From Nonomuraea dietziae (GTDB taxonomy: Bacteria; Actinomycetota; Actinomycetes; Streptosporangiales; Streptosporangiaceae), in assembly GCF_014195505.1 (NCBI RefSeq), contig NZ_JACIBV010000001.1:6882001-6946000 (forward strand): a stretch of 64,000 nucleotides of DNA. Direction: 5' to 3'. Made by a program: the position numbers and the translations under genes. The notes under the pieces are model-generated. The model had not been told where the DNA came from, did no database searches, and saw only the letters and a list, made by a program, of their open reading frames with translations. This document shows, piece by piece, positions 55,133 to 59,626 of the stretch (its first letter is position 1; the number at the start of each line of letters is the position of its first letter).

Positions 55133-55513
55133 ATGATGCGCGTCCCCGTCCCCGCGCGGCTGAAGAAGGCCGTCCGTTCGTGGTTCGACTCCCGTTACAT
55201 CTCGGTCGCCGACCATCGGCAGGACATCAAGGACGCGCTGTGGGAGGTTCAGACGCTGCGCCGTGAGGTGACCACTCTGCAGGAGGAGGTCAGGCGGCTC
55301 AGGGCGGCCAGGCAGCAGGGCCCGCAGCCCGCGGCGCAGGCGGCGGCCGCCACGGCGGTCGCGGAGAAGGCGGCCGAGGCGCACAGGCTGGCCCACGAGA
55401 CGGCCCAGGCGCTCGACAGGATCCTGCAGAACGAGGTCCTGCTCTGGCAGGCGGTCGACGAACTCAGGGCCGCGAACGAGGGCGCCGTGGGCGGGGGGCA
55501 GTCGTGCGCGTGA
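55133..55513 (+). CDS. Small coiled-coil protein, first gene of the D-aminopeptidase operon
   Basis: 126 residues from ATG 55133 (a second ATG follows directly). N-terminal basic ~20 residues, then a heptad-like stretch LWEVQTLRREVTTLQEEVRR and a second Ala-rich helix to ~residue 110, typical of a two- or four-stranded coiled coil. No enzymatic motif. It overlaps the next gene by 10 bp, so it is made together with the PP-loop protein and may be its partner or scaffold. I do not recognise the family. Confidence 0.7.
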   Translation: MMRVPVPARLKKAVRSWFDSRYISVADHRQDIKDALWEVQTLRREVTTLQEEVRRLRAARQQGPQPAAQAAAATAVAEKAAEAHRLAHETAQALDRILQNEVLLWQAVDELRAANEGAVGGGQSCA

Positions 55514-56715
55514 GCTGGAAGGGCGGCGAGCTCACCTTCAGGCTCGACCCCGAGGACGAGATCACCGGCACCGTGTCCGACGGTTACCCCGTGAAGCTGG
55601 CGGTCAACTCCTGCGAGGTCAAGGGCGTCCCCTCCGACGCGCACAACGACCTCTGGGCCGTCGCCGCCTGGACGGTCGTCGCGCCCTGGACCAGAAGGCG
55701 CATCACCTTCGACCGTCCCGTGTCGAGCGCGCTGGCCGCCGCGCTCCACGACGGCTGGGGGATCGAGGCGGGCCCCGTGGGAGGCCCGCCGCGCGACCCC
55801 GGCCCCACGCTGGCGATCTCCTACAGCGGCGGCGCCGACTCGGTGGCCGCCGCGGCGGTCTTCCCCGACGCGCCGTTCGTGCACTTCAGGCGGGTATCGC
55901 ACAGCAGGGTGCCGAACCGCTGGCCGCACTACCGCTCCGACGTGCTGGCCAAGTTGGCCGCGCAGACCGGCCGCGAGGTGACCACGGTCGAGTCGGACCT
56001 GGAGTTCACGCTGGCCGAGCCGCGTCCCGGCTATCCCGAGCACCACGCCGTCATGGTGGGGGCCCTGCTGAACGCCGACAGGCTGGGGCTGGGCGGCGTC
56101 GGCCTCGGGTACGAGATCGGCTCCCGCTGGCTGGGCGGAGGGCGGTACGTGCACCGCTTCACCCCCGACAACCCGATGTGGGCGCCCCACGGCATGTGGG
56201 GGCGGCTGTTCGCCGCAGCGGGGCTGCGGATCGTGCTGCCCGTGGGCGGCGTGAGCGAGGCGATCACGATGAGGATCGCGCTCGACTCCCCGCTCAAGGC
56301 ACAGGTGCGCTGGTGCCTGCGCGGCACCTCGGGGCCCTGCCGTACGTGCGGCAAGTGCCTGTACAAGGAGCTCATCCAGGCCGCGGTGGAGCGCCGTCCG
56401 ATGGACACGCCGATCACCGCGGACCGTCCCGTGGCGCGCAAGTGGCAGGAGCCCCCGCCGTACGGCGGGCAGGAGATGATCGAGTACGGCTGCGCGAGGG
56501 TTCCCGGCATCGAGAAGACGCCCTTCGCCAGGGCGGCCGGGTACCTCGGGGCCACCGAGGAGTCCACCGGCTGGCTCGACCACTGCTACAGGCCGGCGAT
56601 CGAGGAGATCCCCGAGCCGTGGCGGGAGCGGGCGGAGCGGTTCATGGCGGAGAACGTCGGGTTCATGGACGAGGCCCAGGCGCGGCGAGTCGAGACATGG
56701 GGTGGCGCGGCATGA
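55504..56715 (+). CDS. PP-loop ATP-pyrophosphatase-like protein with Cys cluster
   Basis: 403 residues, GTG start. The region ~residues 103-115 reads LAISYSGGADSVAAAA, the SGGxDS loop of PP-loop ATPases, which activate a substrate by AMP transfer. Later come SRVPNRWPHYRSDVLAKLA and, near ~275, CLRGTSGPCRTCGKCLYKEL, a Cys cluster like that of QueC/MurL-type enzymes. The first ~90 residues are beta-rich and unrecognised. The general layout recalls MurL, the ATP-using L-Glu epimerase of peptidoglycan synthesis, but I cannot claim orthology, and no murD2 is present. The stop overlaps the D-aminopeptidase start (ATGA), so both act together. It is probably cytoplasmic. Confidence 0.75.
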   Translation: MRVSWKGGELTFRLDPEDEITGTVSDGYPVKLAVNSCEVKGVPSDAHNDLWAVAAWTVVAPWTRRRITFDRPVSSALAAALHDGWGIEAGPVGGPPRDPGPTLAISYSGGADSVAAAAVFPDAPFVHFRRVSHSRVPNRWPHYRSDVLAKLAAQTGREVTTVESDLEFTLAEPRPGYPEHHAVMVGALLNADRLGLGGVGLGYEIGSRWLGGGRYVHRFTPDNPMWAPHGMWGRLFAAAGLRIVLPVGGVSEAITMRIALDSPLKAQVRWCLRGTSGPCRTCGKCLYKELIQAAVERRPMDTPITADRPVARKWQEPPPYGGQEMIEYGCARVPGIEKTPFARAAGYLGATEESTGWLDHCYRPAIEEIPEPWRERAERFMAENVGFMDEAQARRVETWGGAA

Positions 56716-57554
56716 AGGTCTACCTGTCGGTGGACATGGAGGGCGTGACCGGGTTGACCGACCCGGAGGAGATGCACGCGGGCAAGCGCGGCTACGAGCG
56801 CGGCTGCGAGCTCATGACCGCCGACGCCAACGCCGCCATCGAGGGCGCCTTCGACGCGGGCGCCACCAGCGTGCTGGTCAACGACGCGCACGGCTCCACC
56901 AAGAACCTCAGGATCGACCTGCTCGACCCCCGCGCGACGCTGATCCGCGGCCCCGGCAAGTCGCAGCGCATGGCGCAGGGGCTCGACGCCTCCTTCGACG
57001 CCGCGATGTTCGTCGGCTACCACGCGAGGGCCGGCGTGCAGCACGGCGTGCTCAACCACACGTGGATGGGCAAGGAGATCCAGAACGTCTTCCTGAACGG
57101 CGCGCCCTGCGGCGAGACGCGGCTGGTCGCGGCGTGCGCGGGCTTCCACGGCGTGCCCGTCGCGCTGGTCACCGGCGACGAGGCGGTCGGCCAGGAGGCG
57201 GCGGAGCTGCTGGGCGAGGTCGAGACGGTCGCGGTCAAGAAGGGCATCGACAAGTTCTCGGCCGAACTGCTGCCACCGAGCGTGGCTCAGGCGCGAATCC
57301 GTGAGGGGGCTGCGCGAGCGCTCGGCAGGTTGAGCGGGTTCACACCTTACGAGACGGACCGGCCGTACACGCTGGGCGTGGAGTGGAACTCCACGGCCAT
57401 CGCGGCGGCCTGCGGGCTGGTGCCGGGCGTGAAGCAGACGGGCGCGCGGGAGATCGAGTTCGCCACCGACGACTTCACCCAGATCATGGCGTTGATGGGG
57501 CTGTTCGCGACCATCGGTGGGCAGGTGGCCTGCGGCAGCGGGCCCTATGGCTGA
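56712..57554 (+). CDS. dppA: M55-family D-aminopeptidase (DppA-like)
   Basis: 280 residues. Starts MKVYLSVDMEGVTGLTDPEE: the Asp and Glu of SVDMEG are the first zinc ligands of DppA. Further ligands: His in VLVNDAHGSTKNL, His in FVGYHARAGV, and Glu in APCGETRLVA; the catalytic His is in HGVLNHTWMG. All match the M55 family, whose Bacillus member removes N-terminal D-amino acids (D-Ala-D-Ala, D-Ala-Gly-Gly) as a ring-shaped decamer. No signal peptide, so it is cytoplasmic. It overlaps both neighbours and so belongs to the same translation unit. Confidence 0.92.
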   Translation: MKVYLSVDMEGVTGLTDPEEMHAGKRGYERGCELMTADANAAIEGAFDAGATSVLVNDAHGSTKNLRIDLLDPRATLIRGPGKSQRMAQGLDASFDAAMFVGYHARAGVQHGVLNHTWMGKEIQNVFLNGAPCGETRLVAACAGFHGVPVALVTGDEAVGQEAAELLGEVETVAVKKGIDKFSAELLPPSVAQARIREGAARALGRLSGFTPYETDRPYTLGVEWNSTAIAAACGLVPGVKQTGAREIEFATDDFTQIMALMGLFATIGGQVACGSGPYG

Positions 57555-59100
57555 CAGGGGCACGCTGACCAGGCGCGGACTGCTGGTCGGCATCGGAGCG
57601 GCCGGCGGCGCCGGCGCGATGTACGCGGCGATGGGCGCGCTGGGGCTGGCCCCCTCCGAGCAGGACAAGACGTTCACCCCGCCCAGGCAGGGTGATTTCA
57701 CGCTCAAGGGCAGGGGCGCCGCCAAGGTCGTCATCCTCGGCGCGGGCGTCGCGGGGCTGACGGTCGCCTACGAGCTGGGCAAGGCGGGCTACGACTGCAC
57801 GCTGCTCGAGGCGAGCGACAGGATCGGCGGGCGCAACCTCACCCTGCGCGGCGGCGACAGGCTCACCGAGCTCAACGGGGCCGCCCAGGACGCCCGTTTC
57901 GGCGAGGGCGTCTACTTCAACGCGGGCCCCGGCAGGATCGCGCCGTGGATGGTGACGATGGACTACTGCCGCGAGCTCGGCGTCCCCATCGAGACCTTCG
58001 TCAACTCCAACGCCTCGGCGTACGTGCACACCGAGGGAAGGACGGTCCGCAACAAGACCGCTCGCGCCGACATGTACGGCTATGTCGCGGAGCTGCTGGC
58101 CAAGGCCACCCACCACCGCGCGCTCGACCGCAGGCTCACGGGCGAGGACCGCGAGCGCCTCCTGGAGTTCCTGCGCAGGTTCGGAGACCTGGGGCCCAAG
58201 CTCACCTACGAAGGCTCCGAGCGCCGCGGTTTCACGAGATATCCGGGCATGGACGGCGGAACGGCGCTGACCTCACCCGCCGGCCTGCACGAGGTGCTCG
58301 CCGCGGGAGTCGGCCGCGCGATCACCAACGACTTCGGCTACGACCAGGCGACCCCGATGTTCCAGCCGGTCGGCGGCATGGACGCGATCGTCACCAGGCT
58401 GGTCGAGGCGGTCGGCCGCGACCGCGTCAGGACCGGAGCCAGGGTCACGAAGATCACCGACCAGGCCGGGTCCGTCACCGTCACCTGGGAAGGCGGCGAG
58501 CTCACCGCCGACTACTGCGTCACCACGCTGCCCCCGCACATCCTGGCGAAGATTCCGCACAACCTGGGCGCCCTCGTCACCGCCGCGCTCCGCACGCCCG
58601 TCCCCGTGGCGGCAGGCAAGATCGGCCTGGAGTACGGCAGGCGCTGGTGGGAGCTCGAGGACCGCATCTACGGCGGCGTCACCGAGACCGATCTCGACAT
58701 CACACACATCTGGTATCCCTCCTACGGCTACCACTCCGAGCGCGGCCTGCTCGTCGGCTACTACAACTCGGGCGAGCCCGCCGAGCTGTACGGGGCGCTC
58801 ACTCCCGAGGACCGCAGGCGCCGCGCGCTCACCCAGGGCAAGAAGATCCACGGCGAGAAGTACCGCGCCGAGCTGCTGTCGAGCGTCTCGATCGCGTGGG
58901 AGCGCCAGCCTCATCTCCAGGGCGGATGGGTGCGCTGGCCGGCCTTTGATTCGTCCTTCACTCTCCTGCAACGTCCGTCGGGGAGGGTGTACTTCGCGGG
59001 CGACTGGCTCACCCACCTGGTCGCATGGCAGGCGGGTGCCATGGAGTCGGCGAGGAGTACGGTCACCCAGCTGCACCGGCGTGTCACAGCGTCGGCGTAG
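57547..59100 (+). CDS. Tat-exported FAD-dependent amine/amino-acid oxidase
   Basis: 517 residues from ATG 57547, an 8-bp overlap with dppA. The N-terminus has a twin-arginine signal (LTRRGLLVGIGAAGGAG). FAD-binding Rossmann motif VVILGAGVAGLTVAYELGKA at ~residue 62, then EASDRIGGRNLTLRGGDRLT, a hallmark of the monoamine/L-amino-acid oxidase family, and a C-terminal FAD contact VYFAGDWLTHLVAWQAGAME. It would oxidise an amine or amino acid outside the membrane, giving imine, H2O2 and ammonia. Why an exported oxidase is coupled to a cytoplasmic D-aminopeptidase is unclear. Confidence 0.9.
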   Translation: MADRGTLTRRGLLVGIGAAGGAGAMYAAMGALGLAPSEQDKTFTPPRQGDFTLKGRGAAKVVILGAGVAGLTVAYELGKAGYDCTLLEASDRIGGRNLTLRGGDRLTELNGAAQDARFGEGVYFNAGPGRIAPWMVTMDYCRELGVPIETFVNSNASAYVHTEGRTVRNKTARADMYGYVAELLAKATHHRALDRRLTGEDRERLLEFLRRFGDLGPKLTYEGSERRGFTRYPGMDGGTALTSPAGLHEVLAAGVGRAITNDFGYDQATPMFQPVGGMDAIVTRLVEAVGRDRVRTGARVTKITDQAGSVTVTWEGGELTADYCVTTLPPHILAKIPHNLGALVTAALRTPVPVAAGKIGLEYGRRWWELEDRIYGGVTETDLDITHIWYPSYGYHSERGLLVGYYNSGEPAELYGALTPEDRRRRALTQGKKIHGEKYRAELLSSVSIAWERQPHLQGGWVRWPAFDSSFTLLQRPSGRVYFAGDWLTHLVAWQAGAMESARSTVTQLHRRVTASA

Positions 59101-59110
59101 GGTCCTGCGC

Positions 59111-59626
59111 ATGGATCTCAGATGGGTGCCCGCCCTCGACCGGATGGACCTGCTCGCCGAACCGGTGGCGAGAGCCGTACGTGAGCTGAAGGAGGAGGTG
59201 CGCGTGGCCGAGATCGACGCCGAGCTGGCCGACACCGCCGCCTTCTGCGACCGGTACGGCGTGGCGATGGACGCCTCCGCCAACTGCGTGGTGGTGGCGG
59301 GCAGGCGGGGCGGCGAGGTGCGCTACGCCGCCTGCATGGTGCTGGCCACGACGAGGGCCGACGTCAACGGCGTGATCAGGAGACATCTCGACGCACGCAA
59401 GATCAGCTTCGCCTCCATGGACGACGCGGTCTCGCTGACCGGCATGGAGTACGGCGGCATCACCCCGCTGGGCCTGCCCGAGGGCTGGCCGATCCTGGTC
59501 GACAGCAGGGTGGCGGCCCATCCCGAGGTGGTCATCGGCAGTGGTGTGCGGCGTTCGAAGCTCGCCCTGCCGGGGGCCGCTCTGGCCGGATTGAAGACCG
59601 CGGAGGTCCTCGATCTGGCGAATTGA
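59111..59626 (+). CDS. YbaK/EbsC-type aminoacyl-tRNA deacylase
   Basis: 171 residues, ATG 59111, 10 bp after the oxidase stop. YbaK fold: CDRYGVAMDASANCVVVAGR, RRHLDARKISFASMDDAVSL and TGMEYGGITPLGLPEGWPIL, the last typical of the family, then VDSRVAAHPEVVIGSGVRRS. These enzymes hydrolyse mischarged tRNAs such as Cys-tRNA-Pro or Ala-tRNA-Pro. It likely shares the operon with the preceding genes. Confidence 0.88.
   Translation: MDLRWVPALDRMDLLAEPVARAVRELKEEVRVAEIDAELADTAAFCDRYGVAMDASANCVVVAGRRGGEVRYAACMVLATTRADVNGVIRRHLDARKISFASMDDAVSLTGMEYGGITPLGLPEGWPILVDSRVAAHPEVVIGSGVRRSKLALPGAALAGLKTAEVLDLAN

Follow-up and report, generated by a model that had tools for sequence, protein, structure and literature searches.

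A DUF6395 PP-loop protein in a conserved four-gene operon of Nonomuraea dietziae and its possible role in surface-glycan assembly

The 64,000-nucleotide stretch of the Nonomuraea dietziae genome analysed here (the window; genome size 10.2 Mb) carries an operon of four overlapping plus-strand genes, which encode a small protein (CC), a PP-loop ATPase of the DUF6395 family, an M55 D-aminopeptidase and an FAD enzyme. This four-gene operon is real and conserved in its clade. The PP-loop protein belongs to a little-studied family that, judged by profiles, predicted fold and residues, is QueC/QatC-like with some MurL traits, and its relatives frequently lie among glycan genes. We favour, at about an even chance, the reading that DUF6395 activates a carboxylate in surface-glycan assembly, with CC as its core partner. 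QueC-like enzymes have recently been found in unexpected jobs, namely protein deazaguanylation in the type IV cyclic oligonucleotide-based antiphage signalling system (CBASS) and the qatABCD reaction. DUF6395 looks like another QueC-like branch and offers a testable enzyme of an unstudied family; in actinobacteria, on a Bacillota plasmid and in viral contigs, its members often have surface-glycan genes nearby. The features of the operon, in window coordinates, are as follows.

55133..55513, plus strand: CC, 126 residues, helical-looking; in this clade likely to pair with the PP-loop protein
55504..56715, plus strand, GTG start: PP-loop ATPase, DUF6395 (PF19932), QueC/QatC-like with some MurL-like features
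55825..55842, plus strand: PP-loop motif SGGADS, residues 108-113
56257..56259, plus strand: codon of Glu252, invariant in DUF6395 (24/24) and paired with MurL Glu285
56314..56358, plus strand: predicted Zn site, C271-x7-C279-x2-C282-x-K284-C285
56712..57554, plus strand: M55 D-aminopeptidase, DppA-like; conserved neighbour, missing from 10/64 loci
57547..59100, plus strand, ATG start: FAD enzyme near L-amino acid oxidase 2jae, exported (twin-Arg, by eye); conserved neighbour

Against PF19932, the PP-loop protein scores 229.7 bits (gathering score 25) and is thereby a member of DUF6395. Residues and motifs were counted over 24 DUF6395, 13 QueC and 16 MurL sequences (LarE, n = 3). Invariant in all 24 DUF6395 sequences are G110, D112, S113, G202, E252, C271, C279, C282, K284 and C285; GGxDS occurs in 21/24 and SGGxDS in 18/24. 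The SGGxDS PP-loop and Cys cluster read in the original prediction are both present, as SGGADS and as Cys 271, 279, 282 and 285 (C-x7-C-x2-C-x2-C). The stricter pattern C(x)7-9CxxCxxC fits 23/24 family members, and a first spacing of x6-9 fits 24/24. Judging from these motifs, the protein would bind ATP at SGGADS, and the four Cys would hold a structural Zn.

The best structural match of the predicted fold is QatC, a protein of qatABCD anti-phage defence (PDB 9y01, 9y02), with YcfA and TilS also in the structural list. These matches came from a VIA second look, as Foldseek alone gave none against the PDB at E <= 0.001. Searches of the PDB with phmmer returned nothing for the protein at E up to 1, and the A1 profile retrieved only GMP synthase and Cap9 (E 1.1-5.9). 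The N-terminal domain alone yielded only weak, unrelated matches and no profile match to MurL; therefore, no likeness of this domain to QatC or MurL is claimed. A literature search on DUF6395 found no function on record, and searches on QueC with glycans (among the matches listed) and on ATP-dependent uronate epimerases gave nothing on the family.

QueC is the closest profile to DUF6395 (hhalign, 95%), sharing the PP-loop, C(x)7-9CxxCxxC and the core fold. The SGGxDS and C(x)8CxxCxxC elements of canonical QueC, a protein of ~220 residues, recur in the window protein with a Cys spacing of x7 rather than x8. According to PMC13329287, the substrate motifs of QueC are YxQxHxxE, VPxRN and YPDC. All three are absent from DUF6395 (0/24), as judged by strict patterns that recover only 6, 9 and 8 of the 13 QueC sequences; because of this absence, the 7-carboxy-7-deazaguanine pocket is probably not kept. 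The window protein likewise gives no match to the QueC model TIGR00364 at E up to 1. At the position of E252, QueC has Lys (13/13), as does LarE (3/3), while a forced alignment of MnmA places Glu there, its confident part stopping short of the position. At the position of K284, QueC has S, T, P or A. A term search of PMC13329287 gave no match for MurL, DUF or glycan.

The overlaps of 10 bp (CC/PP-loop), 4 bp (PP-loop/M55) and 8 bp (M55/FAD enzyme) in the original prediction agree with the coordinates; for the FAD enzyme, the program-made open reading frame begins at GTG 57517, and ATG 57547 was taken as the gene start. To see how far the set is kept, 64 syntenic loci were drawn from the named collection, where the near relatives of the host are Nonomuraea, Streptosporangium, Thermoactinospora and other Streptosporangiaceae, and neighbours were sought by tblastn in each stretch, some stretches being short. 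All four genes were found in 54/64 loci, including two (L022, L030) with the oxidase 4.8 kb and 1.3 kb away; the bonds within the set are of unequal strength. In 63/64 loci, CC precedes the PP-loop gene by no more than 130 bp. The oxidase is missing from two loci and M55 from ten, nine of which retain the CC-PP pair. With gene starts chosen by script, the CC-PP gap is negative in 46/63 loci (implausibly long in L045 and L084, where the CC frame stays open), the PP-M55 gap is exactly -4 in 34/54, and the M55-oxidase gap is negative in 1/54 (L021), the window apart. The CC-PP and PP-M55 couplings are more than chance. Many of the loci also keep an enoyl-CoA hydratase gene upstream and genes for an aminoacyl-tRNA editing protein and a Ser/Thr kinase downstream; therefore, shared position alone says little on shared function.

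The PP-loop gene is present as one copy each in 36/36 host-genus genomes searched, the host's own included, and in 0/23 other genomes (order and class) of the same search. DUF6395 matches were found in 98/250 sampled genomes of the host family in GTDB, two of them (G483, G544) as fragments only, and in 2/396 sampled genomes of the phylum, one being the host's own. A profile search of 197 class genomes, with up to nine candidates scored per genome, gave full-length matches in the host family only and short, weak ones elsewhere. G832 lies below the cut-off. In the two genomes with a DUF6395 remnant (L106 in G483, L207 in G544), no oxidase was seen at the usual place, while M55 remains, plus CC in G544.

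CC is conserved in two stretches, DxRY and RLAxETAxAxDxxLQxEVxxWQAxD, and in a 65-row alignment W105 is kept in 64/65, Q106 in 65/65 and D109 in 64/65. Some support for the CC-PP link comes from outside the syntenic locus. In G386, which belongs to the same phylum but is distant, two DUF6395 genes flank a CC homologue on the other strand (33% over 108 residues, E 1.4e-9), and in G593 another lies directly upstream of a divergent DUF6395 copy.

Away from the syntenic locus, glycosyltransferases were found near DUF6395 in 5/8 bacterial settings inspected and matched, within the stretch read, in 6/8 distinct viral groups (L107, L109, L210, L211 below the cut-off, L222, L223). G386 combines four tandem DUF6395 genes with genes for a GDP-mannose dehydratase, a GDP-fucose-synthase-like protein, several glycosyltransferases and an ABC transporter ATPase, and rhamnose and permease genes were seen nearby by eye. 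The tandem genes span L090:16066-18678 into L091:1690, with the opposite-strand CC between the second and third. DUF6395 lies inside a hom-thrC stretch in G591 and G593 (names by eye); in G593 the glycosyltransferase Pfam match is weak, and the G591 glycosyltransferase has a homologue in that stretch (E 2.9e-130). A glycosyltransferase is also near DUF6395 in G833 (Pfam). On a Priestia plasmid, glycosyltransferase (PLSDB labels), pyruvyl transferase and glucuronoxylan-methyltransferase-like genes are nearby, the last (PF21729) being the next annotated gene, 1.2 kb on. In viral L109, a UDP-glucose/GDP-mannose dehydrogenase gene stands directly downstream of DUF6395. Viral L215, whose protein appears by eye to be a PAPS-reductase-like PP-loop enzyme, was left out of the counts.

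In the host's own genome, four genes at 3.881-3.891 Mb, beside hom and thrC, code for strong homologues of the G591 glycosyltransferase. Among the 250 family genomes, a glycosyltransferase of this type was found at E <= 1e-50 in 98/98 with DUF6395 vs 59/152 without, and at 1e-125 in 97/98 vs 1/152. Co-loss of the two genes is inconsistent: G544 and G623 fit, while G483 and G649 do not.

Several related enzymes act on a carboxylate with ATP, namely QueC and Cap9 (PMC13329287, PMC13279940) and MurL, for which an adenylate is the authors' proposal (PMC8788868); the QatC reaction is still unresolved. Since DUF6395 keeps both the ATP site and the Zn site, adenylation of a carboxylate, with release of AMP and PPi, would be its most likely first step, after which the activated group could be amidated, conjugated or, MurL-style, epimerised. 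A surface-glycan precursor or polymer probably carries the carboxyl group that serves as substrate, and CC in this clade is probably an adaptor that holds DUF6395 at the glycan machinery. M55 and the exported L-amino-acid-oxidase-like enzyme, neighbours of long standing, are probably encoded on the same transcript and would not be obligatory.

A number of points weigh against this assignment. Within the window, no glycan genes were seen beside the CC-PP pair, and in the 64 syntenic loci the search covered only the eight neighbours present in the window. The bacterial and viral glycosyltransferase counts are raw, and no glycosyltransferase was seen in the stretches read around the DUF6395 genes of G787 and G819, around the second copy in G500 (these three by eye), or in viral L214 and L226. 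The co-occurrence across the family is confounded by phylogeny and is weak evidence, because DUF6395 and the glycosyltransferase both mark the same clade; moreover, G483 retains the glycosyltransferase with a decayed DUF6395. CC is not a family-wide partner of DUF6395, because its homologues were found by tblastn in only 2/17 stretches away from the syntenic locus (G386, G593), no viral one among them. Not all PP-loop enzymes adenylate a carboxylate.

An unlikely alternative is a protein modification of the QatC/Cap9 kind, in which DUF6395 would conjugate a small molecule onto CC. The best structural match was solved in complex with the partner QatB, and a small partner gene is kept in 63/64 loci here, in line with this idea. 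However, the partner of QatC carries an N-terminal Gly motif, and this residue is indispensable to QatB and becomes modified in CdnD, according to PMC13279940, whereas Gly2 occurs in 0/66 CC proteins (starts chosen by script). For this reason CC as a substrate was set back, and together with its conserved helical-looking stretches the missing Gly2 makes an adaptor more likely than a QatB-like substrate. DUF6395 also lacks the motifs of both relatives: those of QueC are absent from all 24 sequences, and of the QatC motifs listed in PMC13329287, the three used here occur in 0/24 (Dx4Rx7WxR), 1/24 (Px4TK) and 0/24 (Cx19CGxCxxRR). The scarcity of CC near other DUF6395 genes argues in the same direction.

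MurL and the PP-loop protein (440 vs 403 residues) have the same order of elements and share GGxDS, Ser-Glu, four Cys and CxxCxKC. Their profile match is collinear, pairing the PP-loop, Ser-Glu, all four Cys and CxKC, and hhalign aligns E252 with MurL E285 (16/16) and K284 with MurL K324 (16/16). The Glu common to both is a hint of MurL-like chemistry. However, the match is not strong, because it reaches 74.2%, 63.8% and 35.8% by three DUF6395 alignments while LarE and MnmA reach 47-55% in the same kind of comparison. In addition, the N-terminal domains are unlike by profile (0.7%), and the first Cys spacing is x13 in MurL and x7-9 in DUF6395. The window protein does not match the MurL equivalog model NF041275 at E up to 1, on which the MurL used for comparison itself scores 411 bits, below the 700-bit cut-off. 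With up to nine candidates scored per genome, MurL was absent from the DUF6395 profile matches in G259 and G972, although both carry it (in G259, MurL was found via a murD apart from the other mur genes and named by NF041275), and MurL was not found in the viral contigs searched. According to PMC8788868, MurL works beside MurD2 where the host lacks a D-Glu source; here, the genome encodes MurI, and no murD is among the four genes. The 'QueC/MurL type' of the original prediction holds at the superfamily level, by predicted fold, Zn cysteines, collinear profile match and the Glu and Lys of MurL; by model, the protein is not a MurL.

In a bolder reading, which we consider a long shot, DUF6395 could join MurL as a second family of ATP-driven epimerases, with a carboxylate on a sugar as its target. 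The enzyme would adenylate a hexuronic acid or a glycan-borne amino acid, acidifying the neighbouring C-H; that centre would be inverted in one direction and the ester hydrolysed, with Glu252, common to MurL where QueC has Lys, as part of the chemistry. The L109 dehydrogenase gene and the Priestia PF21729 gene are leads; in G386, no gene of either kind was seen. The probability is lowered because MurL reaches 35.8% by one alignment and was missed by the DUF6395 profile in two genomes. With residues in common with both QueC and MurL, the family is in any case a possible lead to the origin of MurL-type ATP-driven epimerisation.

The original prediction tentatively placed the operon in a pathway for making, editing or recycling D-amino-acid-containing peptides. 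In such a pathway, a peptide end would be epimerised by DUF6395 and then cut by M55, with the oxidase disposing of free amino acids. The MurL-type residues and profile match agree with this, as does M55, which is intact as claimed (PF04951, 325.8 bits over 262/264 positions; DppA structure 1hi9, E 8e-51) and lies downstream of PP in 54/64 loci, 34 with the 4-bp overlap. However, M55 is dispensable, because ten loci lack it, and MurI is present in the genome. The exported 'amine oxidase' is an FAD enzyme with a twin-Arg start (MADRGTLTRRGLLVG, read by eye); since its closest solved relative is L-amino acid oxidase 2jae (421 bits, next match 105 bits), presumably from Rhodococcus, that name is too loose, and an L-type oxidase fits the pathway poorly. 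Neither M55 nor the oxidase was found by tblastn in the 17 DUF6395 stretches elsewhere, many copies sitting instead among glycosyltransferases and nucleotide-sugar enzymes, and the pathway is improbable. A nucleobase, tRNA or purine enzyme (QueC, TilS or YcfA type) with glycan neighbours by chance is equally doubtful. QueC is the closest profile, and both YcfA and TilS appear among the structural matches, but the QueC substrate motifs and a TIGR00364 match are missing and the glycan context recurs.

Some further observations concern the surroundings of DUF6395. In the host genome, a GT2 glycosyltransferase cluster lies inside the hom-thrC stretch at ~3.88-3.90 Mb (L205:8511-14749, L206:3682-7240), near a protein weakly, below the cut-off, like asparagine synthase/QueC. 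Viral L214 has two tandem DUF6395 genes followed by an alanine-dehydrogenase/PNT-like gene (L214:4329-6725). A dehydrogenase-like protein of ~230 residues recurs upstream of viral DUF6395 (L107:5945-6637, L210:7635-8345, L223:9325-10005), with only sub-threshold UDP-glucose/GDP-mannose dehydrogenase matches in 2/3. In the window, a protein with an aminoacyl-tRNA editing domain (PF04073) is encoded at 59111-59626, downstream of the oxidase, and is present in many relatives.
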